33,834 nt of DNA from assembly GCA_031272885.1 (NCBI GenBank), contig JAISSX010000063.1, positions 1-33,834 of the forward strand. The letters are read 5' to 3'. The notes beneath the pieces are model-generated. The model was not told where the DNA came from. It saw only the letters and a list, made by a program, of their open reading frames with translations, and ran no database searches. Of this stretch, positions 17,896 to 29,797 are shown one piece after another. The translations under genes were made by a program, and so were the position numbers. The stretch comes from Bifidobacteriaceae bacterium. Its GTDB lineage: Bacteria; Actinomycetota; Actinomycetes; Actinomycetales; WQXJ01. Position 1 is the first letter of the stretch. Every line of letters starts with the position of its first letter.

Positions 17896-17941
17896 CATGG
17901 GACTTTTGTTCTAGATTGGGCCGCCAGGTAGTGTTTGAAAC
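17896..17941 (+). promoter_or_regulatory. Response-regulator promoter with a DosR-box-like site
   Basis: TTGTTC (17906-17911) and TAGTGT (17929-17934) are 17 bp apart and the GTG at 17942 follows the -10 after 7 bases, so the gene is probably leaderless. GGGACTTTTGTTC (17899-17911) covers the -35 and is identical at 11 of 13 positions to the site upstream of cydA. It matches the mycobacterial DosR box (core GGGACTWWAGTCCC) well only in its left half. Autoregulation is inference. Confidence 0.5.
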
Positions 17942-18607
17942 GTGCCTGGGAGCCTAACCGAGCCGCGTATTAGTGGTGAAATCAACGTCATGATCGTCGA
18001 CGATCACGAAGTGGTCCGCCGAGGGATCGCCGAGGTGGTCGACCGCAGCGATGGGATGCGGGTGGTGGCCGAGGCCGGCACTGTGGCCGAGGCCCTCCGC
18101 CGGGCCGTGTTGGTTAATCCCCATGTCATCCTGGTGGATCTGCGCCTGCCGGACGGCACCGGCATCGACCTGATGCAGCAGTTGCAGACCACTGCCCCTT
18201 CGATCCGGCCGGTCGTGTTGACGTCCTTCGACGACGATGACGCCCTGGCGGCCGCGCTCGAAGTTGGGGCCGCCGCCTTCCTCTTGAAATCGGTCCGCGG
18301 GGCCGAAATCGCCGAGGTCATCCGGGCAGTCGCCTCGGGGCGCACCCTGCTGGATGAGCGGACCTTGACCCGCCGCCGGGCCGACCACGAAGACCCGACG
18401 GCCGATCTGACGCCGTCGGAGCACAAGGTGCTGGGGCTGATCGGCGAGGGCCTGTCCAACCGCGAGATTGCCGAACGGCTGGGCGTGGCCGAGAAGACCG
18501 TCAAGAACCACATCACGTCGTTGCTGGCCAAGATGGGGTTGCAGCGCCGCACCCAGGTGGCCGCCTGGGTGGCGGCCAAGGAGTCGTCGTCCTGGCGGGC
18601 GGCGTAG
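17942..18607 (+). CDS. NarL/LuxR-type response regulator, DosR/DevR-like
   Basis: A 221-residue two-component transcription factor. The receiver domain begins with INVMIVDDHEVVRRG (acidic pair about residues 20-21), has the phospho-acceptor Asp66 in VILVDLRLPDG, the switch Thr in VLTSF and the conserved Lys in FLLKSV. After a short linker, the LuxR-type helix-turn-helix reads LTPSEHKVLGLIGEGLSNREIAERLG; the recognition helix AEKTVKNHITSLLAKMG is almost that of mycobacterial DosR, including the Lys and Asn known there to touch DNA. By family it would control hypoxia or redox genes. It converges stop to stop with a GAF kinase that is its likely partner. An internal ATG at 17990 would remove 16 residues, but the leaderless GTG fits better. 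Confidence 0.9.
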   Translation: MPGSLTEPRISGEINVMIVDDHEVVRRGIAEVVDRSDGMRVVAEAGTVAEALRRAVLVNPHVILVDLRLPDGTGIDLMQQLQTTAPSIRPVVLTSFDDDDALAAALEVGAAAFLLKSVRGAEIAEVIRAVASGRTLLDERTLTRRRADHEDPTADLTPSEHKVLGLIGEGLSNREIAERLGVAEKTVKNHITSLLAKMGLQRRTQVAAWVAAKESSSWRAA

Positions 18608-20380
18608 CTAGTCCAGGGGGACGGCCCATTCCAACCGTAGGCCGCGGCCGCCATCGGGCACCCGGACGTGAAAATCGCCGCCGTGCTGTTTAGCCCGGCC
18701 GGCCAGGTTAGACAACCCCGAGATGCGGTCGATGGCCGGGTCCAACCCCACGCCATCGTCCTCCACCAGAATTGTCACCGAACCGGGGCCAATCGGGCTG
18801 ACGCCCGGCGTCTCCACCGCCACGGTGACGTTAACCGACTTGGCCTTGGCGTGGCGGGCGGCGTTGGACAGGCCTTCGCGCACCACCGCCACCATGTCGT
18901 CGCCCAGGTTATCCGGGATCAGCGTCTCCAGGCGCTCCACTAGTTCGGCTTCGCCGTCCGCGCTGCCCAGGGCCTGGCCGTCCAGTAGCAGCACTAGCGA
19001 CGGCGCGAAGCCCAGCGACCAGCGGGCCAGCGAGGCTTCGTGGCGCAGGCGTTCGGTCACCTGTTCGCTGGTGGAGGGGCTGCGCAGGTGGGCCACGATC
19101 GACCGAATCTCACGCACCGTCGAATCGATCGAATCCAGGGCGTCGGACAGGGTGGCTTCCAGGCCTTTCGGCTCCTCCCCCTGGGCGGCCTGTTTGCGGG
19201 CCGATTCCAGCCGGATGCCCGTGGCGAAAAGCTGCTGGATGGCCAGGTCATGCAGGTCGCGGGCAATCCGTTCGCGCTCGGCCACCAGGGTGTTGAGGTC
19301 GGCGTTGTGGCGGGCCTCGGACAGTACCAGGGCCAAGGCGGCGTGGGCGGCGAAAGACTCGGCCGTGGTCAGGTCCGCCTGGTCGAACGAGTTGGCACCG
19401 ATCTGCCGCAGCAACACCAGCACGCCAACCCCGCGGCCCAAGGTGCGCAGCGGGGCATACAGCGCCGGCCCGAAGGCCCGCAACTGCTCTACCCGCAGGG
19501 TGTAGGCGGCGGCCAGCGAGTCGACAATCATGCCGATGCCCTCGGTCAACACCGTGTGGGAGCGCCCGCCGGTGGGCATGCGCAGGCCGATCAGGCCATC
19601 GGCCCCCTCGCCGTCCGCGATCTCAATCACCAGTTGATCGCCCACGGACGGCAGCACCAGGATGGCGGTGCAGGCTCCGGCCACGGTGCGGGCCCGTTCC
19701 GCGATCAGGCTGAGGGCTTCCTCTTCCTCCGCGCCGGACAGCAGCATTGTGGTGATCTCTTGCCCGGCTGACAGCCAGTGTTCGCGCCGCTGCGAGGCCA
19801 TGTATAGCTGGGCGTTCTCGATGGCGACCCCCACCGCTGTGGCCAGGGCGGCGATGATCTCGCCATCGGCCTGGGTGAAGCCGCCGGGCTTGCCCACCAG
19901 GTAGAGGTGGGCGAACACGACGTGCCGCACCCGCACACTGGCGCCCATGAAGGCGTCCGAATCGGGGCCGCCCGGGGAGGCCGGCTTGGCGGTCGCCTCC
20001 GCCACCACCGGGATGGCGCCGGTGGCGGTCCGTTCGATGGGGAAGTGGTCCAGGATCAGCGGCTGGTGGGCTGGGATGCGCGTCATCAGGCCGCCGGCGT
20101 GGCGCAGTTCCTCCAGCCGGTCAAGCGGCGCCTGGTCGCTGCTATGGATGTAAAAACGCTGGTCGACGCCCCGGCCGTCCAACACGTTGAGGGCGGCGCC
20201 GCTGGCCCCGGTCAGTTCCGGGGCGGCTACCACCAGGCGCTGCAACAGTTCCCCCAGGTCCAACCGGCTGGACAGGGACAGGACGGCAGACAGTAGTTCG
20301 GATTCCACCTGCGCGGCCCGGGGCGTCTGGCCGGCTTGGTTGCGGCGCGTCAAACGCGCACGGCGAGGGGATGACGCCAT
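18608..20380 (-). CDS. GAF-domain sensor histidine kinase (DosS/DevS-like architecture)
   Basis: A 590-residue soluble kinase, no membrane segment. Two GAF sensor domains occupy about residues 40-195 and 215-355. A HisKA_3 dimerisation domain follows with phospho-acceptor His377 in RIARDLHDLAIQQLFATG, then an HATPase domain with the N-box REGLSNAARHAKA (about 501-513) and DDGVG (541-545). This is the DosS/DosT layout. In those proteins a His in an HPPM-F-G segment of the first GAF holds heme; the matching stretch here, GGPDSDAFMGASVRVR, has no His, so the signal may differ. It lies 43 bp after cydC on the same strand and may be co-transcribed with cyd. The cognate regulator converges on it with no gap. 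Confidence 0.9.
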   Translation of the reverse strand: MASSPRRARLTRRNQAGQTPRAAQVESELLSAVLSLSSRLDLGELLQRLVVAAPELTGASGAALNVLDGRGVDQRFYIHSSDQAPLDRLEELRHAGGLMTRIPAHQPLILDHFPIERTATGAIPVVAEATAKPASPGGPDSDAFMGASVRVRHVVFAHLYLVGKPGGFTQADGEIIAALATAVGVAIENAQLYMASQRREHWLSAGQEITTMLLSGAEEEEALSLIAERARTVAGACTAILVLPSVGDQLVIEIADGEGADGLIGLRMPTGGRSHTVLTEGIGMIVDSLAAAYTLRVEQLRAFGPALYAPLRTLGRGVGVLVLLRQIGANSFDQADLTTAESFAAHAALALVLSEARHNADLNTLVAERERIARDLHDLAIQQLFATGIRLESARKQAAQGEEPKGLEATLSDALDSIDSTVREIRSIVAHLRSPSTSEQVTERLRHEASLARWSLGFAPSLVLLLDGQALGSADGEAELVERLETLIPDNLGDDMVAVVREGLSNAARHAKAKSVNVTVAVETPGVSPIGPGSVTILVEDDGVGLDPAIDRISGLSNLAGRAKQHGGDFHVRVPDGGRGLRLEWAVPLD

Positions 20381-20423: not shown

Positions 20424-22136
20424 TTAGCTGTGCAGACCCGCGGCGACGGGTTCCAGGCGACCGCCGCGTACCGCCAACACCTGGTCGGCCGTGGCCAGGG
20501 CTTCCGGCCGGTGGGACACCACGATCACCCCGCGGCCGGATTGGTGGGCGATGGCGAGCAGCCCCGCCGTCAGCCGGTCGGCCGCTGCCGCGTCCAGGTG
20601 TTCGGCCGGCTCGTCGAACAGCAGGTAACGGGCCGGGCAGGCCAAGGCGCGGGCCATCAGCAAGCGCCGCCGCTCCCCGCCCGAAACATCCGTGGCGCCC
20701 GTTCCTAGGGCCGTGTTCAGGCCATCCGGCAGGGCGGCCAGCCAGTCCGCCAGGCCAACCGTCTCCAGCAGGTTATGGGCTTCGGCCTCGGTCACGTCGC
20801 CGCGGGCCACGCGCAGGTTTTCCAGCACGGTGGTGGCGAAGATGTGGGCGTCCTCGGCCACGAACACCACACCGGCGGCCCGGGTCTGGGAATCCAGCCC
20901 AACCAGCGGTGTGCCGCCGATGACGACCCGGCCGGCTTGGGGCGCCAGCAGCCCTGCCAGGGTGGCCAACAGCGTGGTCTTGCCCGCGCCGGAGGGCCCC
21001 ACCAGACCGATCGACCGGCCCGGTTCCAGGGTCAACTCGACGTCGCTCACCACCGCCGGCCCATCCGGCCAGCCGGCGGCCAGGCCGGTCGCCACCAGTG
21101 GGCCAGCCAGCGTAGTGGCCTCATCTACGGCAGGCGCCTGGGCGCCATCGGGCACCTGGCCTTCGTGGCCGGCCTCCGCTAGGGCCACAATGCGGCGGGC
21201 GGCGGCGCGGGACTTGTAGACCTGGGCGGCGGCGGCGCTGAGGCCCGCCACGGCCTCGAAACAGGCCAGCGGCGTCAGCACCACCACGCCCAGGGCGGTG
21301 GCGCTGAGCCGGCCGTCCCAATAGGCGTGGGCGGACAGGACCAGGGCCAGGATCAGGGCCAGGCCCACGCCCACCTCGGTCAGGGCTTGGGCCAGCGCCT
21401 GGGGTTTGGCGGCGGCGTCGGTGGCCTGCTCCAGGCGGTCCTCGCCGCGCTTCAGGGCCCGGCGGGCGGCGGGCATCTGGCCGCCCACGCGCAGTTCGGA
21501 GGCCGTCTCCAGGATCTCCAGGCCGGCCGCCGAAACCTCTGAGCGAGCGGCGTTGGCCCGTTCCTGGCTGATGCGGGCGGCCCGGAAGGTCAGCGCCGGC
21601 CCGCCCACGGCCACCAGGGCCAGGCAGAGGAACAGGGCCACCCCCATTTCCGGCAGCAGCCAGCCCACCGCCACCGAACTGCCCACCATCAGCAGGCCGG
21701 CCACCATGGTGGGGATCAGGCCGCGTACCACCAGGTCGCCCACGTCATCGACGTCCGCGCCCACTCGGGCCAGCAGGTCGCCGCGGCGCAGGGCGGCGGC
21801 GGCCGATGGCGCCCCGGCGGCCAGGCGTTCATACAGCCGCACCCGCAGTTCGGTCATGCCGTTCAGCGCCACCCGGTGGGCCGTCAGGCGTTCGACGTAG
21901 CGCGAGACGCCCCGGGTGATACCGCAGGTGCGGACCATCACGACGGCGATCTGCAGGGACAGCACCGGTGGCATCTGGGAGGCGCGCACAATCAGCCAGG
22001 CCGAAACGGCGGCCAGCGCCACCGAGGCGGTTTGGGTCAGGGCACCGAAGAAGACGGCGGCGGCCAGTGGGCCGGGCTTGAGGCCGGTCAGGCGGATGGC
22101 GCGGCGCAGGGCGTGCTTGGGTGCGGAGGTGGTCAT
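20424..22136 (-). CDS. cydC: ABC transporter subunit CydC (cytochrome bd assembly)
   Basis: CydC with CydD forms the heterodimeric ABC exporter needed for cytochrome bd maturation; E. coli work links it to thiols and heme. The 570-residue protein has an N-terminal six-helix membrane part (about 1-310) and a nucleotide-binding domain with Walker A GPSGAGKT (380-387), signature VSGGERRR (484-491), Walker B YLLFDEP (504-510) and switch His542. The Q-loop position reads VAEDAHIF, with Glu428 where Gln is usual, and the D-loop is AEHLD. The linker contains a perfect copy of the dispersed 15-nt word (21141-21155), encoding VPDGA. ATG 22136 overlaps the cydD stop; a frame open to 22637 lies inside cydD. 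Confidence 0.92.
   Translation of the reverse strand: MTTSAPKHALRRAIRLTGLKPGPLAAAVFFGALTQTASVALAAVSAWLIVRASQMPPVLSLQIAVVMVRTCGITRGVSRYVERLTAHRVALNGMTELRVRLYERLAAGAPSAAAALRRGDLLARVGADVDDVGDLVVRGLIPTMVAGLLMVGSSVAVGWLLPEMGVALFLCLALVAVGGPALTFRAARISQERANAARSEVSAAGLEILETASELRVGGQMPAARRALKRGEDRLEQATDAAAKPQALAQALTEVGVGLALILALVLSAHAYWDGRLSATALGVVVLTPLACFEAVAGLSAAAAQVYKSRAAARRIVALAEAGHEGQVPDGAQAPAVDEATTLAGPLVATGLAAGWPDGPAVVSDVELTLEPGRSIGLVGPSGAGKTTLLATLAGLLAPQAGRVVIGGTPLVGLDSQTRAAGVVFVAEDAHIFATTVLENLRVARGDVTEAEAHNLLETVGLADWLAALPDGLNTALGTGATDVSGGERRRLLMARALACPARYLLFDEPAEHLDAAAADRLTAGLLAIAHQSGRGVIVVSHRPEALATADQVLAVRGGRLEPVAAGLHS
21141..21155 (-). repeat. Dispersed 15-nt word, perfect reverse copy in cydC
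   Basis: GGCGCCATCGGGCAC, the complement of the copies at 7415 and 29807. On the coding strand it reads GTG CCC GAT GGC GCC (VPDGA) in the linker before the ATPase domain. Confidence 0.8.
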
Positions 22137-23875
22137 AGGAACCAGGCCTCCCGGGCTTGGACCGGCTCCGCCTGGGCTGCTTCGGAGGCTTCGGCTGCGT
22201 CCTGGGCGGGGGCCCAGGCCACGGTCACCGTCTGGTGAGCCATGGCCAGCAGCGAGGCCCGGTGGGCCACCACCAAAACGGTGCGGCCGGCCCGGTGCAG
22301 AGCCTCGATCGAGGCGATGACGTGCGCCTCGGTGGCGGCGTCCAGGTGGGCGGTCGGCTCGTCCAGGATCACCAGCGGGCTGGGGGAGAGGAAAGCCCGG
22401 GCTAGCGCCAGGCGTTGGCGTTGGCCAACCGACAGCCCCACGCCGCCCTGCCCGATGGCGCTGTGCCAGCCGTCCGGTAGGCTCGCCACCACTTCGGCGA
22501 AGCCGCTGGCGGCGGCCGCCGCCTCGACCGCCGGGCTGACGGCGCCCGGCTGGTCCCAGTCCTGCAGCAGGTTTTGCAGGGCGGTACCGGGCAGCAACAT
22601 GGGCCGCTGGGGCGCCCAGGCGATCTGGTTCCACCAACTGTCGGGGGCGACATCGGCCAGGTCGATCGGTGCGCCGCCGGGAGCCTGGACGGTGACCCGC
22701 CCGGCATCGGGCCTGATAAGACCAAGCAGGGCCAGTACAGTGGTCGACTTGCCGGCGCCGTTGGGGCCGGTCAGGGCGGTCAGGGAGCCGGGCTCAAGGG
22801 TGAAGCTGAGGCCGGCCGGTGCCAGGCGGCCGCGGCCTTTGGCCAGCACGCCCAGGTCGCTGACCGTGATGGTGGCTTGGGCCAAGTCAGGGGCCGGCAC
22901 CGTGCCGGCCTGCGGCAGCGGCAAGGCCAGCAGGTCGAAGGCCCGCTCCGAGGCGGCCACGCCGTTGGCCGAGGCGTGGAAGTGGGTGCCCACGTGGCGT
23001 AGCGGCGCCAAGACTTCCGGCGCGATCATGATGATGGCCAGGCCGCGCACCAGGTCCAGGTGGCCGGCCTGCAGGCGCAGGCCCACCCACACGGCCACCA
23101 GGGCCACCGACAAGGTGGCGATCAGTTCCAGGGCGGCGCCGCTCAGGAAGGCGATGCGGACGGTGCCGAAGGTGGCCTTGGAGTGGGCCTGGCTGAGCGC
23201 CCGGACGCGGGCCGCCGGGCCGCGCTCCCTGCCCAGGGCCTTCAGCGTGGGCAGGCCGCTGATCAGGTCCAACACCTGTGATCCTAGTGTCGTCATGGAG
23301 CGCAGGCGCCGGGCTGAGGCGGCCTGGGTCAGCCGGCCAATCAGAATCATGAAGAGCGGAATCAGGGGAATTGTCAGGAGCAGCAGCAAGGCGGATTGCC
23401 AGTCGGTGAAGCCGGCCACCAGCAGCAGGATGGGGGTCACCGTGACCACCATCAACAGTTGCGGCAGGTAGCGGGCAAAGTAGGCGTCCAGGGCGTCCAG
23501 GCCGCGGGTGACCAACTGGGTGGTCTTGGCCAGTTGCCCCGCGCCGGCGCCGCGTGGGCCGAGTTTGACGGTGTGTTCCAGGACCGCGCCGCGCAGTTCG
23601 GCGATGGTGTGGATGGCGGCCCGGTGGGCGTAGCGTTCCTGGGCCCAACTGGCGGCCACGCGGGCGGCCACGATGCCGGCCAGGGCCAGCACGGTGTGGC
23701 CCAGGGCGGTGCCGTCGAAGGGGTCCCCGGCTGCGAGGCGGCCCACCGCCCGGGCCACCAGCAGGGCCTGTGCCACCACCAGCACCGACAGCGCCACGCC
23801 CAATGCGGCCGTCACCACGATGTAGCGGCGGGCGGCTTGGGCATGCCTGATCAAACGGGGATCGAGCGGTTTCAT
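22133..23875 (-). CDS. cydD: ABC transporter subunit CydD (cytochrome bd assembly)
   Basis: Partner of CydC in the inner-membrane exporter required for bd oxidase assembly. The 580-residue protein has six hydrophobic segments in residues 15-300, then Walker A GPNGAGKS (370-377), Q-loop Gln423, signature LSVGQ (481-485; usually LSGGQ), Walker B LVILDEP (501-507) and His538. A 25-residue Ala/Glu-rich tail ends the protein. The names CydD and CydC follow gene order (cydA-B-D-C as in mycobacteria). It starts 124 bp after the cydB stop, behind GC-rich hairpins, and ends in a 4-bp overlap with cydC. Confidence 0.92.
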   Translation of the reverse strand: MKPLDPRLIRHAQAARRYIVVTAALGVALSVLVVAQALLVARAVGRLAAGDPFDGTALGHTVLALAGIVAARVAASWAQERYAHRAAIHTIAELRGAVLEHTVKLGPRGAGAGQLAKTTQLVTRGLDALDAYFARYLPQLLMVVTVTPILLLVAGFTDWQSALLLLLTIPLIPLFMILIGRLTQAASARRLRSMTTLGSQVLDLISGLPTLKALGRERGPAARVRALSQAHSKATFGTVRIAFLSGAALELIATLSVALVAVWVGLRLQAGHLDLVRGLAIIMIAPEVLAPLRHVGTHFHASANGVAASERAFDLLALPLPQAGTVPAPDLAQATITVSDLGVLAKGRGRLAPAGLSFTLEPGSLTALTGPNGAGKSTTVLALLGLIRPDAGRVTVQAPGGAPIDLADVAPDSWWNQIAWAPQRPMLLPGTALQNLLQDWDQPGAVSPAVEAAAAASGFAEVVASLPDGWHSAIGQGGVGLSVGQRQRLALARAFLSPSPLVILDEPTAHLDAATEAHVIASIEALHRAGRTVLVVAHRASLLAMAHQTVTVAWAPAQDAAEASEAAQAEPVQAREAWFL

Positions 23876-23999: not shown

Positions 24000-26036
24000 T
24001 CAGGCGACCTTCTCCAGGCCGGATTCCTCCGGGATACGGTCGGCCGAGATGCGGCGGCGGAACACGATGATGCTCCACGCCTGGTAGGCCAGGACGATCG
24101 GCACCAGGCAGCCCGCCACAATGGTCATCAGCTTCAAGGTCAGGGGCGAAGAAGCCGCGGCGTGCATCGGCAGGCCGGTAATCTTCGCACCATCTTCGAA
24201 ACCTTCCAGCGTGGTGTGTTCATCCAACAGGCCCAGCGCCACGAGGGCATCGAGCGCCACGTTGGCGTTCTCCAGGCGGCCGTTGATGTTGGCCAGGGCC
24301 AGGTCGTTGTCCCAAGCCGAGCCGGTGATGATGGGCAGCAGTTCCATGCCGTCCTTGAACACCGGCGTTTCGGCCTCAGGCGCATCGGCCACGGCCTGCA
24401 GCGTGTCGACCACCTTGCCCAGCACGCCCTGCACGGAGGCGGGGATCTGGTTCAGGGCTGCCGCCACGGTCTTCTGCACCTCGGCCACCACGGTTTCGGC
24501 CGGCAGGCCGCCAATGGTGTCCGATTCACCAGCCAAGGCCGGCCCGATGTCGCCCACCACAGCCGCGATGGTCTCATCGGTCGGGTCAACGCCCACGCGG
24601 GCCAGGGTGATGGTCACCACGTCGACCACGTTGCCCAGCGGGATGACGCCGATCACCGGATCGTCACCGGCCACCACGGACTGCAGGATGGCGGTGGTGA
24701 CCTGGTTCTGGAAATCGGTCGGTTCGGCTTGGATGTCATCGACCGTCAGGGCGCCGCTCTCAAGCGCGGCCTTGACCCGGTCGAAGCACTTGACCACCAC
24801 CATCTCAACGTCTTCCTGCGGGATGAGGCCGGCGGCGGGATAGGTGCCGGTGGCCACGTCGGCCAGGATGGCGTCGGTCAAGGCGACGGTGTGTTCGGTC
24901 GGCTCGCCCACCAGGTCGGCCCCAGGCGTGGCCTCCACGGCCTGGAACGTCAAGGTGACCACGTCCCCCACGTTGAGGCCGGCGCCGCCGTTGTCCGTGC
25001 CCAACACCACGCGGCCCACAATCGGGTCGGCAATGGCATCGCCCTTGACCGTCACGCTGGAGGCGTTGATGACGTTGGGGAACAGGGACACGAAGATGGT
25101 GGCCACGGCGGCGGCCAGGGCAACCGTCATCGCCACGAAGGAGACGCCGAACTTCTTCGACAGGGTGAACAGCACCACCAGCACCAGGGCCACGGCGGCC
25201 ACGGCCACGGTGATCCATTCGATGGTGGGGTTGTTGCCGAACTTGAAGGCCAGCCAGACGGCCCACACGGCCGCCAGGACCGTGGCGACGATGGCCAGCT
25301 TGGGGGCAAGGGATTCGGCCCTGTGCCGCAGTTCGCCGTCCGTCTTCAACGCCAGGAAGATGGCGCCGATGGTCAGGAACAGCGAAGCGGTGACCAGGCC
25401 ACCCAGCAGGACGAAGCCCTGGTGGGCAATGACCAGATCCCAGAAGCCGCCCGCGTAGACGATCTTCGAGGGGCCAACCTGGGTGGCATCGACCGCGGCG
25501 GGCACGCCCGCCACCAGATCGGAGAACGCCACGCCCCACAGCACAGCGGGGATCCAGGAACCGAGGATGATGCAGTAGTCCCACATCTTGCGCCAGCCGG
25601 CCCCGTTGATCTTGCCGCGGTATTCGAACGCCACCGCGCGGGCGATCAGGCCCAGCAGGATCAGGAACAGGGGCAGGTAGGCGGCCGAGAACAATGTGGC
25701 GTACCACTCGGGGAAGGCCGCGAAGGTGGCGCCACCGGCGGTGAGCACCCAAACCTCGTTGCCGTCCCACAGTGGGCCGATGGTGGAAAGCATGGCCCGG
25801 CGCTCGGAATCCTTCTTGCCCAGGATGGGCAGCAGCATGCCGACGCCGAAGTCGAAGCCCTCCAGCACCAGATAGCCGGTCCACAGGACGGCGATCAGGC
25901 CGAACCAGAGGATCTCCAGGCCGGTGGGATCGGTAGTCAGGAAGTGCAGCAGGTTCACCACTGCGTTGGCGGTGCCTTCAGTGTTGGCCGGATCGACCGG
26001 CGCAGCCGCTAGAACGGAAGCCAGAATGTCAGTCAT
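24000..26036 (-). CDS. cydB: Cytochrome bd ubiquinol/menaquinol oxidase subunit II with a large loop insertion
   Basis: CydB is the second core subunit of the membrane-bound bd oxidase, which reduces oxygen to water with quinol electrons. At 678 residues it is nearly twice the usual 340-380. Family sequence covers residues 39-325 (ILWFGLIAVLWTGYLVLEGF, the DGNEVW motif at 91-96) and 628-678 (SSPLTLKLMTIVAG, the last helix and tail). Between them, after SLFPNVINASS, lie about 300 soluble residues. From E. coli topology this loop faces outside. A 38-residue N-terminal extension is also unusual but is preceded by a strong AAGGAGA ribosome site. The frame is open throughout, with no sign of frameshift. 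It follows cydA by 23 bp. Confidence 0.93.
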   Translation of the reverse strand: MTDILASVLAAAPVDPANTEGTANAVVNLLHFLTTDPTGLEILWFGLIAVLWTGYLVLEGFDFGVGMLLPILGKKDSERRAMLSTIGPLWDGNEVWVLTAGGATFAAFPEWYATLFSAAYLPLFLILLGLIARAVAFEYRGKINGAGWRKMWDYCIILGSWIPAVLWGVAFSDLVAGVPAAVDATQVGPSKIVYAGGFWDLVIAHQGFVLLGGLVTASLFLTIGAIFLALKTDGELRHRAESLAPKLAIVATVLAAVWAVWLAFKFGNNPTIEWITVAVAAVALVLVVLFTLSKKFGVSFVAMTVALAAAVATIFVSLFPNVINASSVTVKGDAIADPIVGRVVLGTDNGGAGLNVGDVVTLTFQAVEATPGADLVGEPTEHTVALTDAILADVATGTYPAAGLIPQEDVEMVVVKCFDRVKAALESGALTVDDIQAEPTDFQNQVTTAILQSVVAGDDPVIGVIPLGNVVDVVTITLARVGVDPTDETIAAVVGDIGPALAGESDTIGGLPAETVVAEVQKTVAAALNQIPASVQGVLGKVVDTLQAVADAPEAETPVFKDGMELLPIITGSAWDNDLALANINGRLENANVALDALVALGLLDEHTTLEGFEDGAKITGLPMHAAASSPLTLKLMTIVAGCLVPIVLAYQAWSIIVFRRRISADRIPEESGLEKVA
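24156..25061 (-). other. Novel extracytoplasmic insertion domain within CydB
   Basis: Residues about 326-627 of CydB. The segment is acidic, without membrane helices. Two parts look alike: residues 333-432 (ADPIVGRVVLG ... NVGDVVTLTF ... TEHTVALTDAI ... AAGLIPQEDV) and 454-545 (DDPVIGVIPLG, NVVDVVTITL, TDETIAAVVGDI, IGGLPAETVV). The rest (550-625) is less repetitive. It contains a single cysteine (Cys417). I do not recognise the fold. Confidence 0.75.
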
Positions 26037-26059: not shown

Positions 26060-27610
26060 TCAGTAGCTGAAGGTCAGCGGCTTGGACTCGTCCAAGTCGG
26101 CCTTCACCTCGGGGGGAACCTCTTCCAGCGGCGCGCCCTTGGCGACATACCGCTTCATGAGGTAGAACCAGGCGATTGCCAACACCAGATACAACAGCGT
26201 GAAGACAATCACCGTGATGATGACGGAACTGGCCGGCACAACCGGCGAGACCGCGTTGACGGTGGTCAAGGAGAGGTCGGCCGCATCGGGCGACAGGCTC
26301 TGCACACCACCGCTGTTGGAGTAGTTGAGCACCGGATAGACGATGAACGGTTGGCGGCCGATTTCGGTGAAGATCCAGCCGAAGGCCGCGCCCAGGAACG
26401 GCATGGGCAGCGACAGCACCGACCAGAACTTCAGGAAGCCGGAACCGGTGGTGCGCCCGCCCCGCAAGGCGAACAGGCCCACCAGCGCCAACAGGGCGCT
26501 GAAAGCCCCGAACGCGATCATCAGGCGGAAGGTCCAGAAGACCGTCATCTGATTCGGGATGAAGTCGAGACCAACCTCGTCCGCCACCTCGGGCGGCGTC
26601 TGGTAGCCGTCTTGCAGCAACTGCTCGGCATCGTTGATGCCGGTCACCTGCGCACCGGTGTCGTTGTAGGCCAGCAGAGAGAGCAGCTTCGGGATGGTGA
26701 TGATGCGGGTGGGTTCGGTCCATTCGCCCTGCAAGTTGGCGGGATCGACCGGCGCGCACTCGCCGAAGGCCACCACGGTGAAGCCGGCGCCCTCGCCCTC
26801 GGCGGGCGTGACGCACAGCATTTCGGCGGCGGCCATCTTGGTCGGCTGGATCTTGGTGATCACCTGGGCCTGGTGGTGGCCCGAGAAGATCAGCGAGATG
26901 CCGGCGATGATCACAACCCAGCAACCCACCACGCCGGCCTTGCGGTAGACCTTGGCGCCGTCTTCGTTGCCGGCCCGGACCGCCTTAACCACCCACCAGA
27001 TGGCGATGCCGGCCATGAACGTGCCGGCCACCACGAAGGAGGTGGAGATGGTGTGCCAGAAGGTGGAGAGTGAGAGCTGCGAGAACAGCACCGACCCCAG
27101 AGAGTCCATCTGGGCGCGGCCAGCCACAGGATCATACGAGGACCCGACCGGGTACTGCATGAAGCTGTTGGCGGCCAGGATGAAGAAGGCCGACAGGTTG
27201 ACGGCGAAGGCCACCAGCCAGATGGAGAGCAGGTGGACGCCGCGGCTGAGGCGACCCCAGCCGAAGATCCACACGCCCAGGAACGTGGATTCGATGAAGA
27301 ATGCCGCCAAGGCCTCCATGGCCAGTGGCGCGCCGAAGATGTCGCCGACCATCCGGGAGTACTCGGACCAGTTCATGCCGAACTGGAACTCCTGGACGAT
27401 GCCGGTCACAATGCCCAGCGCGAAGTTGATCAGCAACAACTTGCCGAAGAACCGCGTGAGCCGGTACCACTCGTCTTTGCCGGTCTTGTACCAGATGGTC
27501 TGGAGCAGGGCGACCAGGGGCGTCAGGCCGATGGTCAGCGGCACAAAGATGAAGTGGTACACAGTGGTGATGCCGAACTGCCATCTGGCAAGATCAAGCG
27601 CTTCTAACAT
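26060..27610 (-). CDS. cydA: Cytochrome bd ubiquinol/menaquinol oxidase subunit I
   Basis: CydA carries the three hemes and the quinol site of the bd oxidase. With the ATG at 27610 the protein is 516 residues, and numbering matches E. coli: His19 (heme b595/d side), His185 (heme b558), Glu99 and Glu106 of the proton path, and Met363 in FRLMIAFG (heme b558). The Q-loop motif QPTKMAAAE (about residues 254-262) and GRQP (417-420) are intact; the Q-loop is the short type. GGAGG five bases before ATG 27610 rules out the GTG at 27616. First gene of the cyd unit, divergent from the radical SAM gene across a 255-bp regulatory region. Confidence 0.96.
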   Translation of the reverse strand: MLEALDLARWQFGITTVYHFIFVPLTIGLTPLVALLQTIWYKTGKDEWYRLTRFFGKLLLINFALGIVTGIVQEFQFGMNWSEYSRMVGDIFGAPLAMEALAAFFIESTFLGVWIFGWGRLSRGVHLLSIWLVAFAVNLSAFFILAANSFMQYPVGSSYDPVAGRAQMDSLGSVLFSQLSLSTFWHTISTSFVVAGTFMAGIAIWWVVKAVRAGNEDGAKVYRKAGVVGCWVVIIAGISLIFSGHHQAQVITKIQPTKMAAAEMLCVTPAEGEGAGFTVVAFGECAPVDPANLQGEWTEPTRIITIPKLLSLLAYNDTGAQVTGINDAEQLLQDGYQTPPEVADEVGLDFIPNQMTVFWTFRLMIAFGAFSALLALVGLFALRGGRTTGSGFLKFWSVLSLPMPFLGAAFGWIFTEIGRQPFIVYPVLNYSNSGGVQSLSPDAADLSLTTVNAVSPVVPASSVIITVIVFTLLYLVLAIAWFYLMKRYVAKGAPLEEVPPEVKADLDESKPLTFSY

Positions 27611-27699
27611 GCGCACCTCCGCTGTGAGGATGGGGTGGTCTATGGTCAGGGTATGAAAATGGCGCCAGCCCAGGACAGCCCAAGGACCGTTGATGGGCC

Positions 27700-27780
27700 T
27701 AGGTTCAACCTATGAGCCAACAGCCGAAGAGTATAGGACCAAAGTCCCAAGTTCTTCACACTTTCTCCCCGTTTCTTCAC
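27700..27780 (-). promoter_or_regulatory. cydA control region: DosR-like box, palindrome, direct repeats
   Basis: On the minus strand GGGACTTTGGTCC (plus 27736-27748) matches the DosR box at 14 of 20 positions and keeps its GGAC-N4-GTCC spacing. TATACT (plus 27730-27735) directly follows. A second possible -10, TAGGTT (plus 27707-27712), would put the box at about -42, the usual DosR position. That hexamer belongs to the 13-nt palindrome TAGGTTCAACCTA (27700-27712). Upstream, TTCTTCAC occurs at 27752-27759 and 27773-27780, exactly 21 bp apart. Confidence 0.5.
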
Positions 27781-27865: not shown

Positions 27866-29797
27866 ATGACCCAGCCCAGCGCCATCGAGCCCCCTCGACT
27901 GACGGACCGCTTGGAAGCCCTTCTAACGGGGGTCCAAGGTCCCGTCCAATACATCGGCGGCGAGGTCAACGCGCAGGTCAAAGACTGGCAGGCGGCCGCG
28001 GGGGAGCGGGTCCACTGGGTGCTGGCCTTCCCCGACGCCTATGCCGTGGGCCAACCGAACCTGGGCCTGGCCATGCTGTACGAGATCCTCAACGAACGCG
28101 AAGACGCCCTGGCAGAACGGGCCTACGCCCCCTGGCCAGACATGGAACAGGCCATGCGCCGCGCCGGCCTGCCCTGGTTCACGCTGGACGCCCACCGGCC
28201 GGTCAATCGGTTCGATCTGCTCGGCGTGTCGCTCTCCACCGAACTGGGTTACTCCAACCTGCTGACCTGTTTGGACCTGGCCGGCATCGGGCTGCACCAG
28301 GCGGATAGGCCCGATTCCGCCCCGCTCGTCATCGTGGGCGGGCACGCCGCCTTCAACCCGGAACCGCTGGCGGACTTCATCGACGGCGCCGTACTGGGGG
28401 ACGGCGAGGAAGTGGTGGGCCGGATCACCGACGTCACCCGGGACTGGCGGGCGGCCGGGCGGCCCGGCGGGCGGGACGGCCTGCTGTGGGAACTAGCCCA
28501 CCGTGACCTGCTCTACGTACCGTCCCTCTACCAGGTGAGCTACGACCCGGTGAGCCACCAGATCACGCAGGTGGCGCCATCGGGCAGTGTGGCCGGCCGC
28601 GGCCTGCCGGTACCGACCAAGCAGACGGTGCAGGACCTGGACCGCTGGCAGTACCCCAAGGCACCCCTGGTGCCGTTCGCCGAAACCGTCCACGAGCGCC
28701 TCAGCGTGGAGATTTTCCGCGGCTGCACCCGCGGCTGCCGCTTCTGCCAGGCCGGCTTCATCACCCGGCCGGTGCGGGAACGCTCACCGGAGACGATAGC
28801 GCAGATGGCGCGGCGCGGCCTGGCCGCCACCGGCTTCGATGAGGTGGGGCTGCTGTCGCTCAGTTCGGCCGACCACACGGGGATCGGGCGGATCGCCAAG
28901 AACCTGGCGGACGAATACCAAGGCACCCAGGTGGGCCTGTCGCTGCCGTCTACCCGAGTGGACGCCTTCAACGTCACCCTAGCGGAGGAACTGCTGCGCG
29001 GTGGGCGCCGGCCCGGCCTGACCTTCGCGCCGGAGGGCGGCTCGGAGCGGATGCGGCGCGTCATCAACAAGCAGGTCACCGAGGCGGACCTGTTGGACAC
29101 CGTGGCCACCGCCTTCGGCCACGGCTGGCGTTCCGTCAAGCTCTACTTCATGTGTGGCCTGCCCACCGAGGAAGAGGCGGACGTGACCCAGATCGCCACC
29201 CTGGCCCAGGCCGTCATCCGGCGGGGCCGCGAGGTGACCGGCAGCCGCGACATCCGCTGCACCATTTCGATCGGGCCGTTTGTGCCCAAGGCCCACACTT
29301 CGTTCCAGTGGGCGGCCCAGGCCCCGGCCGAGGTGGTGGATGCCCGCCTCGCGGCGCTGCGGGCGGCCATCTTGGCGGACCGGCCCACCGCCCGGGCCAT
29401 CACGCTGCGCGCCGCCCCCGGCCGGCCGGCCCAACTGGAAGGGCTGTTGGCGCGGGGCGACCGGCGGGTGGGGGCCGTCATTGAGCGGGCCTGGCGCGGC
29501 GGCGCCCGCTTCGACGGCTGGCGCGAACACCTGAAACTGGACGTGTGGGAGGCGGCGGCGCGTTCTGTCTTGGAGCCGCAGGGCCTAAGCCAGGAGTGGT
29601 ACACCCAGCGGGAACGAGGCTGGGACGAGGTGCTGCCGTGGGACCACTTCGAGACCGGCCTGGACCGGGATTGGCTGTGGGATGACTGGGAGGCAGCCAA
29701 GGACGGCGGCGGTGTGGAGGACTGCCGCTGGGCCGGCTGCTACGACTGCGGCGTGTGCACCACCTTAGGTACGGCGATTCAGATCGGGGTGGGCTAG
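27866..29797 (+). CDS. B12-binding-like/radical SAM protein, TIGR03960 family
   Basis: A 643-residue cytoplasmic protein of the radical SAM superfamily. The first 250 residues resemble the B12-binding-like region of the family (VGQPNLGLAMLYEILNER, VIVGGHAAFNPEPLADFIDG). The iron-sulfur motif is CTRGCRFC: Cys287, Cys291 and Cys294 (CxxxCxxC). FAPEGGSERMRRVINK follows in the barrel. The C-terminus has a second cysteine cluster, CRWAGCYDCGVC. AAGGAAGA precedes the ATG. The family nearly always sits beside a DUF2344 gene and an RNase E/G gene, as here, suggesting an RNA or ribosome-related modification; the substrate is not established as far as I know. The next gene starts on the base after its stop. 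Confidence 0.9.
   Translation: MTQPSAIEPPRLTDRLEALLTGVQGPVQYIGGEVNAQVKDWQAAAGERVHWVLAFPDAYAVGQPNLGLAMLYEILNEREDALAERAYAPWPDMEQAMRRAGLPWFTLDAHRPVNRFDLLGVSLSTELGYSNLLTCLDLAGIGLHQADRPDSAPLVIVGGHAAFNPEPLADFIDGAVLGDGEEVVGRITDVTRDWRAAGRPGGRDGLLWELAHRDLLYVPSLYQVSYDPVSHQITQVAPSGSVAGRGLPVPTKQTVQDLDRWQYPKAPLVPFAETVHERLSVEIFRGCTRGCRFCQAGFITRPVRERSPETIAQMARRGLAATGFDEVGLLSLSSADHTGIGRIAKNLADEYQGTQVGLSLPSTRVDAFNVTLAEELLRGGRRPGLTFAPEGGSERMRRVINKQVTEADLLDTVATAFGHGWRSVKLYFMCGLPTEEEADVTQIATLAQAVIRRGREVTGSRDIRCTISIGPFVPKAHTSFQWAAQAPAEVVDARLAALRAAILADRPTARAITLRAAPGRPAQLEGLLARGDRRVGAVIERAWRGGARFDGWREHLKLDVWEAAARSVLEPQGLSQEWYTQRERGWDEVLPWDHFETGLDRDWLWDDWEAAKDGGGVEDCRWAGCYDCGVCTTLGTAIQIGVG

Follow-up and report, generated by a model that had tools for sequence, protein, structure and literature searches.

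A short inverted repeat upstream of cydA, the gene for subunit I of cytochrome bd oxidase, is conserved across many actinobacterial families, and in the Bifidobacteriaceae genome considered here it probably serves as operator for a two-component system of DevSR type that is dedicated to cytochrome bd. The whole stretch of DNA that was analysed, referred to as the window (33.8 kb), has a single occurrence of GGAC-N4-GTCC, at 27735-27748 on the minus strand; from sequence and conservation this is the predicted operator of the cydA promoter, the DosR-type box GGGACTTTGGTCCT. The original prediction had put a palindrome with this core at 27736-27748 of the minus strand, and re-reading of the letters bears it out, 27748 to 27736 being GGGACTTTGGTCC, with 27735 adding a T. 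That the neighbouring two-component system would govern bd oxidase, as was also proposed, is supported by conservation of the motif, its spacing from a -10 hexamer, the DevR-like character of the regulator and the linkage to cyd.

The cydA gene (26060-27610, minus strand; PF01654, 6.1e-142) has its ATG at 27610, in an ORF open from a GTG at 27616. Downstream of it, all on the minus strand, are cydB for subunit II (24000-26036; profile and sequence), two CydDC-type ABC exporter halves assigned by profile (the first, cydD/cydC, at 22133-23875 and the second at 20424-22637, where the listed ORF exceeds the likely gene) and, at 18608-20380, the gene for a DevS-like histidine kinase with GAF, HisKA_3 and HATPase_c domains (profile and alignment). 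On the plus strand, and convergent with the kinase gene, there follows the gene for a DevR-like response regulator with a receiver and a LuxR/GerE helix-turn-helix whose helix has EKTVKNH (17942-18607; profile, alignment and tree). The kinase gene is likely the final gene of a cydABDC-HK operon, and convergent kinase and regulator genes adjoining cyd recur in many relatives belonging to several families. As a separate matter, the 678 amino acid CydB has a long insert, of about 270 amino acids, before its last hydrophobic segment; the insert is shorter or absent in relatives, with Cellulomonas CydB being ~340 amino acids when counted from the aligned start to its stop, and it increases towards the window's lineage.

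The 20-mer CTTGGGACTTTGGTCCTATA (27751-27732, minus strand) agrees with the DosR consensus TTSGGGACTWWAGTCCCSAA at 14 of 20 positions, a figure already given in the original prediction and now verified against the consensus as printed in PMC2275270. Such a match is by itself weak and not significant; when the 249-bp intergenic region is Markov-shuffled, ~6% of the shuffles contain an equally good one (P ~0.06), and five further places in the window score 14 or 15 of 20. The significance of the box comes from its conservation in relatives, and not from this score.

That conservation was assessed on 73 regions upstream of cydA. Genomes, the window's own and relatives, gave 55 of these (from 59, three being without a cydA match and one, G001, without upstream DNA), and 18 came from 80 named loci that a search with the regulator alignment had brought up; in the fetched DNA 60 of the 80 were without cydA and 2 had only part of it. 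The exact core is present in 42 of the 73 regions (28/55 genomes and 14/18 named loci), with 0.92 expected from base composition, and with a mean of 1.3 and a maximum of 6 in 200 Markov shuffles. When all 3328 candidate inverted repeats (256 tetramers by 13 gap lengths) are ranked, GGAC with a gap of 4 is first and the runner-up is found in just 21 regions; first rank is kept within the window's family (14 of 16 regions, runner-up 5) and also outside it (28 of 57, runner-up 16), and some of the runners-up, such as GACC with gap 2 and GGGA with gap 6, are the same box in another register. The exact core is found at least once in 10 of the 20 families sampled. Among the named loci, the box is carried by Actinotignum schaalii, Flaviflexus massiliensis, Georgenia satyanarayanai, Cellulomonas phragmiteti, C. 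denverensis and Demequina pelophila, and also, among others, by Actinosynnema pretiosum, Gandjariella thermophila and Kibdelosporangium persicum. It is missing, although cyd is within reach, from Arcanobacterium ihumii, Actinomyces massiliensis, Yinghuangia soli and the bin-01319 locus. Absence of the motif upstream of cydA in relatives had been named at the outset among the outcomes that would refute the prediction, and what is found is conservation. As a control, 30 regions upstream of the regulator gene were scanned likewise and gave 0 exact cores.

Of the proposed likeness to the DosR box, one part stands and another does not. The GGGAC...GTCCC inverted-repeat core is shared, but the full 20-mer is not: across the 42 sites agreement with TTSGGGACTWWAGTCCCSAA varies from 11 to 16 of 20, and the outer TTS/SAA ends are not conserved. 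What is conserved is the 14-bp core only.

On the minus strand a TAGGTT hexamer (27707-27712) starts 23 bp after the box core, and a TAnnnT hexamer 22-26 bp past the core is present in 32 of the 42 exact-core regions, at precisely 23 bp in 18 of them, with 1.1 of 42 expected from local frequencies. This near-constant spacing has the consequence that the centre of the box falls at about -41.5, for cydA in the window provided that TAGGTT occupies -12 to -7 of the putative promoter, so that the earlier suggestion of TAGGTT as an alternative -10, with the box centred at about -42, gains support from relatives. The box would then overlap the -35 region. A consensus scan of the region upstream of cydA yields no sigma-70-type promoter that passes, as is expected of an activated promoter. 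For M. tuberculosis, a proximal DevR site overlapping the -35 is described as a common feature, as are promoters that often carry two or more boxes (PMC3029386); the cydA promoter region has one.

A site near -41 that overlaps the -35 can also block, and the direction of control is not readable from sequence. It is pertinent, then, to ask if the regulator could be a repressor that excludes polymerase from the -35, with cyd derepressed when the kinase is off. This seems unlikely, given that there is no good -35, that the recurrent distance to the -10 is typical of contact between activator and polymerase, and that DevR activates from such sites (PMC3029386).

The closest PDB match of the regulator is M. 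tuberculosis DevR (3c3w, E 8.5e-52), with VraR next at 1.6e-35. It was predicted to have nearly the DosR recognition helix, AEKTVKN; in the alignment to 3c3w the helix is in fact identical to that of DevR. The window regulator has the receiver Asp (Asp54 of DevR) along with the DevR recognition-helix residues, and in 20 aligned sequences D66 and E184-K185-T186-V187-K188-N189-H190 are invariant. By our numbering K188 corresponds to DevR K182, and, to go by a reference title in PMC12919924, change of DevR K182, or of C8 of the box, impairs binding of DevR to DNA. In a midpoint-rooted tree of 103 regulators the window's is in a clade of 44 and DevR is in the remainder of 59, the split having support of 100/100 and placements within the tree being unsure due to a few long branches. 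With its position in a clade apart from DevR, the regulator is better termed DosR-like than DosR. Linkage to cyd is in more than one place in the tree, e.g. in Pseudonocardiaceae.

The box could alternatively be the operator of a different DevR/NarL-type regulator encoded elsewhere, the linkage of the pair to cyd being incidental. The window genome has 16 further response-regulator hits, and there are genomes, G018, G021, G039 and G030 being examples, in which the box is present and cydA does not have the best regulator hit in its neighbourhood. Against this, the linkage of kinase and regulator to cyd recurs in several families, and EKTVKN is absent from the other plausible helix-turn-helix segments read in the window genome (a comparison in which the segment was printed for some, not all, of the 16): these have ETTVKT (L250, and L253/L258, which are one gene), EQTVKT (L252), EATVKK (L254) and RRTVEN (L257). 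Presence of the box is also associated with presence of the regulator. Among genomes whose best regulator hit has E<=1e-40 the exact box is found in 27 of 41, versus 1 of 14 others (Fisher p 1.3e-4, shared ancestry being ignored), and outside the window's family the counts are 14 of 26 versus 0 of 13 (Fisher p 6e-4, with the same disregard of ancestry). The association is incomplete, with the exact core missing in 14 of the 41 genomes that have a strong hit and, in G036, G049 and G052, with regulator hits of 3e-84 or better, no core even at 7/8. Overall, a regulator encoded elsewhere is an improbable owner of the box, and the linked regulator is preferred.

Immediately upstream of the box there is a second conserved block, seen only in the window's family, which is CGGGGAGAAAGTGTGAAG in the window (27754-27771, minus strand) and has a family consensus of about GGCAGAAAcTGTGAAG and a fixed distance from the box. 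In many members of the family there is a further GTGAAG ~21 bp upstream. The TGTGAAG of the conserved block raises the issue of whether Rex or CRP exerts the main control, the box being secondary; Rex controls cyd in Streptomyces, and Crp1 controls cydAB in M. smegmatis (PMC7739888). This is very unlikely for the window: the block in the window's family matches neither a Rex nor a CRP site, near the cydA promoter a scan allowing up to 3 mismatches gives no Rex operator (TTGTGAA-N4-TTCACAA) and one allowing up to 2 gives no CRP-type site, and in 18 family genomes no Rex N-domain scores above the cut-off.

The intergenic region is common to cydA and a divergent radical-SAM gene that starts at 27866 on the plus strand, and the box might be thought to serve the latter. 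It is towards cydA, however, that a -10 is kept at conserved spacing, and it is cydA that the box tracks over many families, which makes service to the radical-SAM gene highly improbable. Finally, a chance palindrome, as the frequency of equally good consensus matches in shuffled regions and elsewhere in the window might have led one to suppose, is barely credible with conservation so far above that in shuffles.

A box-like site, GGGACTTTTGTTCT, is located upstream of the regulator gene (17899-17912, plus strand) and has 13 of 15 agreement with the cydA box; it is kept by 0 of 29 relatives, so that autoregulation via this site is unsupported. In 18 family genomes there are 70 exact RGGACNTWNGTCCY sites versus 13 of the reversed pattern, in a count over both strands that scores each palindrome twice. 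The window genome has four exact sites, of which the one at cydA is at the location found repeatedly in the family, and when one mismatch is allowed 42 sites versus 46 for the reversed control is no excess. A wide regulon, like the DosR dormancy regulon with its many targets, stress proteins among them, was considered and is not favoured, the only genes besides cydA that clearly recur in the 18 genomes being those for type IV prepilin. For these the exact site is 165-339 bp upstream in five genomes of one genus (L135, L158, L160, L163 and L165), and they are a possible second target on the strength of these sites. Single sites are near feoA, sucA/kgd, nrdH, a ferredoxin oxidoreductase gene and atpB, the names being assigned from sequence.

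The kinase matches DevS and DosT and has their GAF-GAF-HisKA_3-HATPase architecture. Absent from it is the proximal haem His, in the HPP motif of GAF-A: the PPYHPPM of DevS, whose His (residue 149) we take to be the haem ligand, aligns with PGGPDSD in the window. Relatives vary in this regard. In the GAF-A part of the alignment, HP at the place of the haem His is kept in 10 of 21 relatives' kinases (G032, G049, G044, G026, G003, G002, G019, G035, G051 and G029), the kinases without it are that of G001, of the same genus as the window, and those of G004, G007, G009, G010, G011, G015, G016 and G036, and in those of G045 and G028 most of GAF-A is missing. Named loci that keep the haem His include several from Cellulomonadaceae and others from Georgenia, Flaviflexus, Demequina and Yinghuangia; Schaalia vaccimaxillae, Pauljensenia hongkongensis and Actinomyces sp. 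B33 are without it.

A proposed sequence of events, on the reading that the box is the operator of the linked pair, begins with a main oxidase unable to keep pace, whether due to low oxygen or to another block on respiration. The kinase would then phosphorylate the regulator at Asp66, and a dimer of phosphorylated regulator would bind at the box, where with a centre at about -41.5 it would cover the poor -35 region, and recruit RNA polymerase to turn on cydABDC and the kinase gene. With the kinase gene last in the operon, activation would raise the level of kinase too, and the resulting positive feedback would be on the sensor and not on the regulator.

The closest parallel is with DosR/DevR and the DevSR (DosSR/DosT) system of M. 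tuberculosis. Shared are the GGGAC/GTCC core, a site over the -35 (here of the putative promoter), the recognition helix of the regulator, and a kinase with GAF domains, HisKA_3 and HATPase. The target differs: in M. smegmatis cyd reportedly does not belong to the DevR regulon, and devR mutants of that species are reported to induce cydAB about like wild type (PMC7739888). In further contrast with the M. tuberculosis arrangement, the outer TTS/SAA ends are not conserved, the box in the window is single, the regulator is in its separate clade and the kinase is without the haem His.

Other comparisons are with HrrSA of Corynebacterium glutamicum, with its NarL-type output domain, with ArcBA of Escherichia coli, where the output domain is of OmpR type, and with OsdK/OsdR of Streptomyces coelicolor, an organism in which the kinase gene SCO3948 presumably adjoins cydABCD. 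SCO3948 is reportedly the kinase most similar to OsdK (PMC5069765) and is listed as an orphan kinase (PMC9739842). OsdK/OsdR is a DevSR-type pair and the OsdR sites are likewise palindromic, being of 16 bp, but their consensus, AGGGCCGATCGGCCCT, is unlike the window box (PMC5069765); cyd has 0 occurrences in the text of that paper. HrrSA is a two-component system that activates cydAB but, unlike what is envisaged for the window pair, it is haem-responsive and global, with >200 targets, and the available portion of its description has no account of linkage to cyd (PMC7337898). ArcBA has an output domain family and a site unrelated to those of the window pair. It provides two-component control of bd oxidase (cydAB) by oxygen availability (PMC7739888).

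A search of open-licence papers, to the extent of their accessible text, found no DosR-type box or DevSR-type pair described for cyd in actinobacteria, and no description in that literature of how bd oxidase is switched in actinobacteria beyond mycobacteria, streptomycetes and corynebacteria. Most likely, what the window contains is a switch of DevSR type that is dedicated to bd oxidase. A broader reading, to be held tentatively and as possible rather than probable, is that there is a second DevSR-type branch in Actinobacteria apart from DosSR, with cytochrome bd as its main recurrent target, in which operator and recognition helix have stayed fixed and the sensor has changed: the haem-type GAF would be present in Cellulomonas, Demequina and others, the ligand gone from the lineage of the window and from several Actinomycetaceae, and GAF-A as a whole lost elsewhere, with output re-coupled at least once to a non-haem signal, e.g. 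quinone redox state. What kinases of this sort sense could be learned from the variants that occur in nature, some having the haem ligand and others lacking it. With control of mycobacterial bd oxidase reported to be different, the comparison bears on rewiring within the DosR family, and the conserved operator together with its linked two-component system would provide an answer to how bd oxidase is switched that can be put to direct test in many families.
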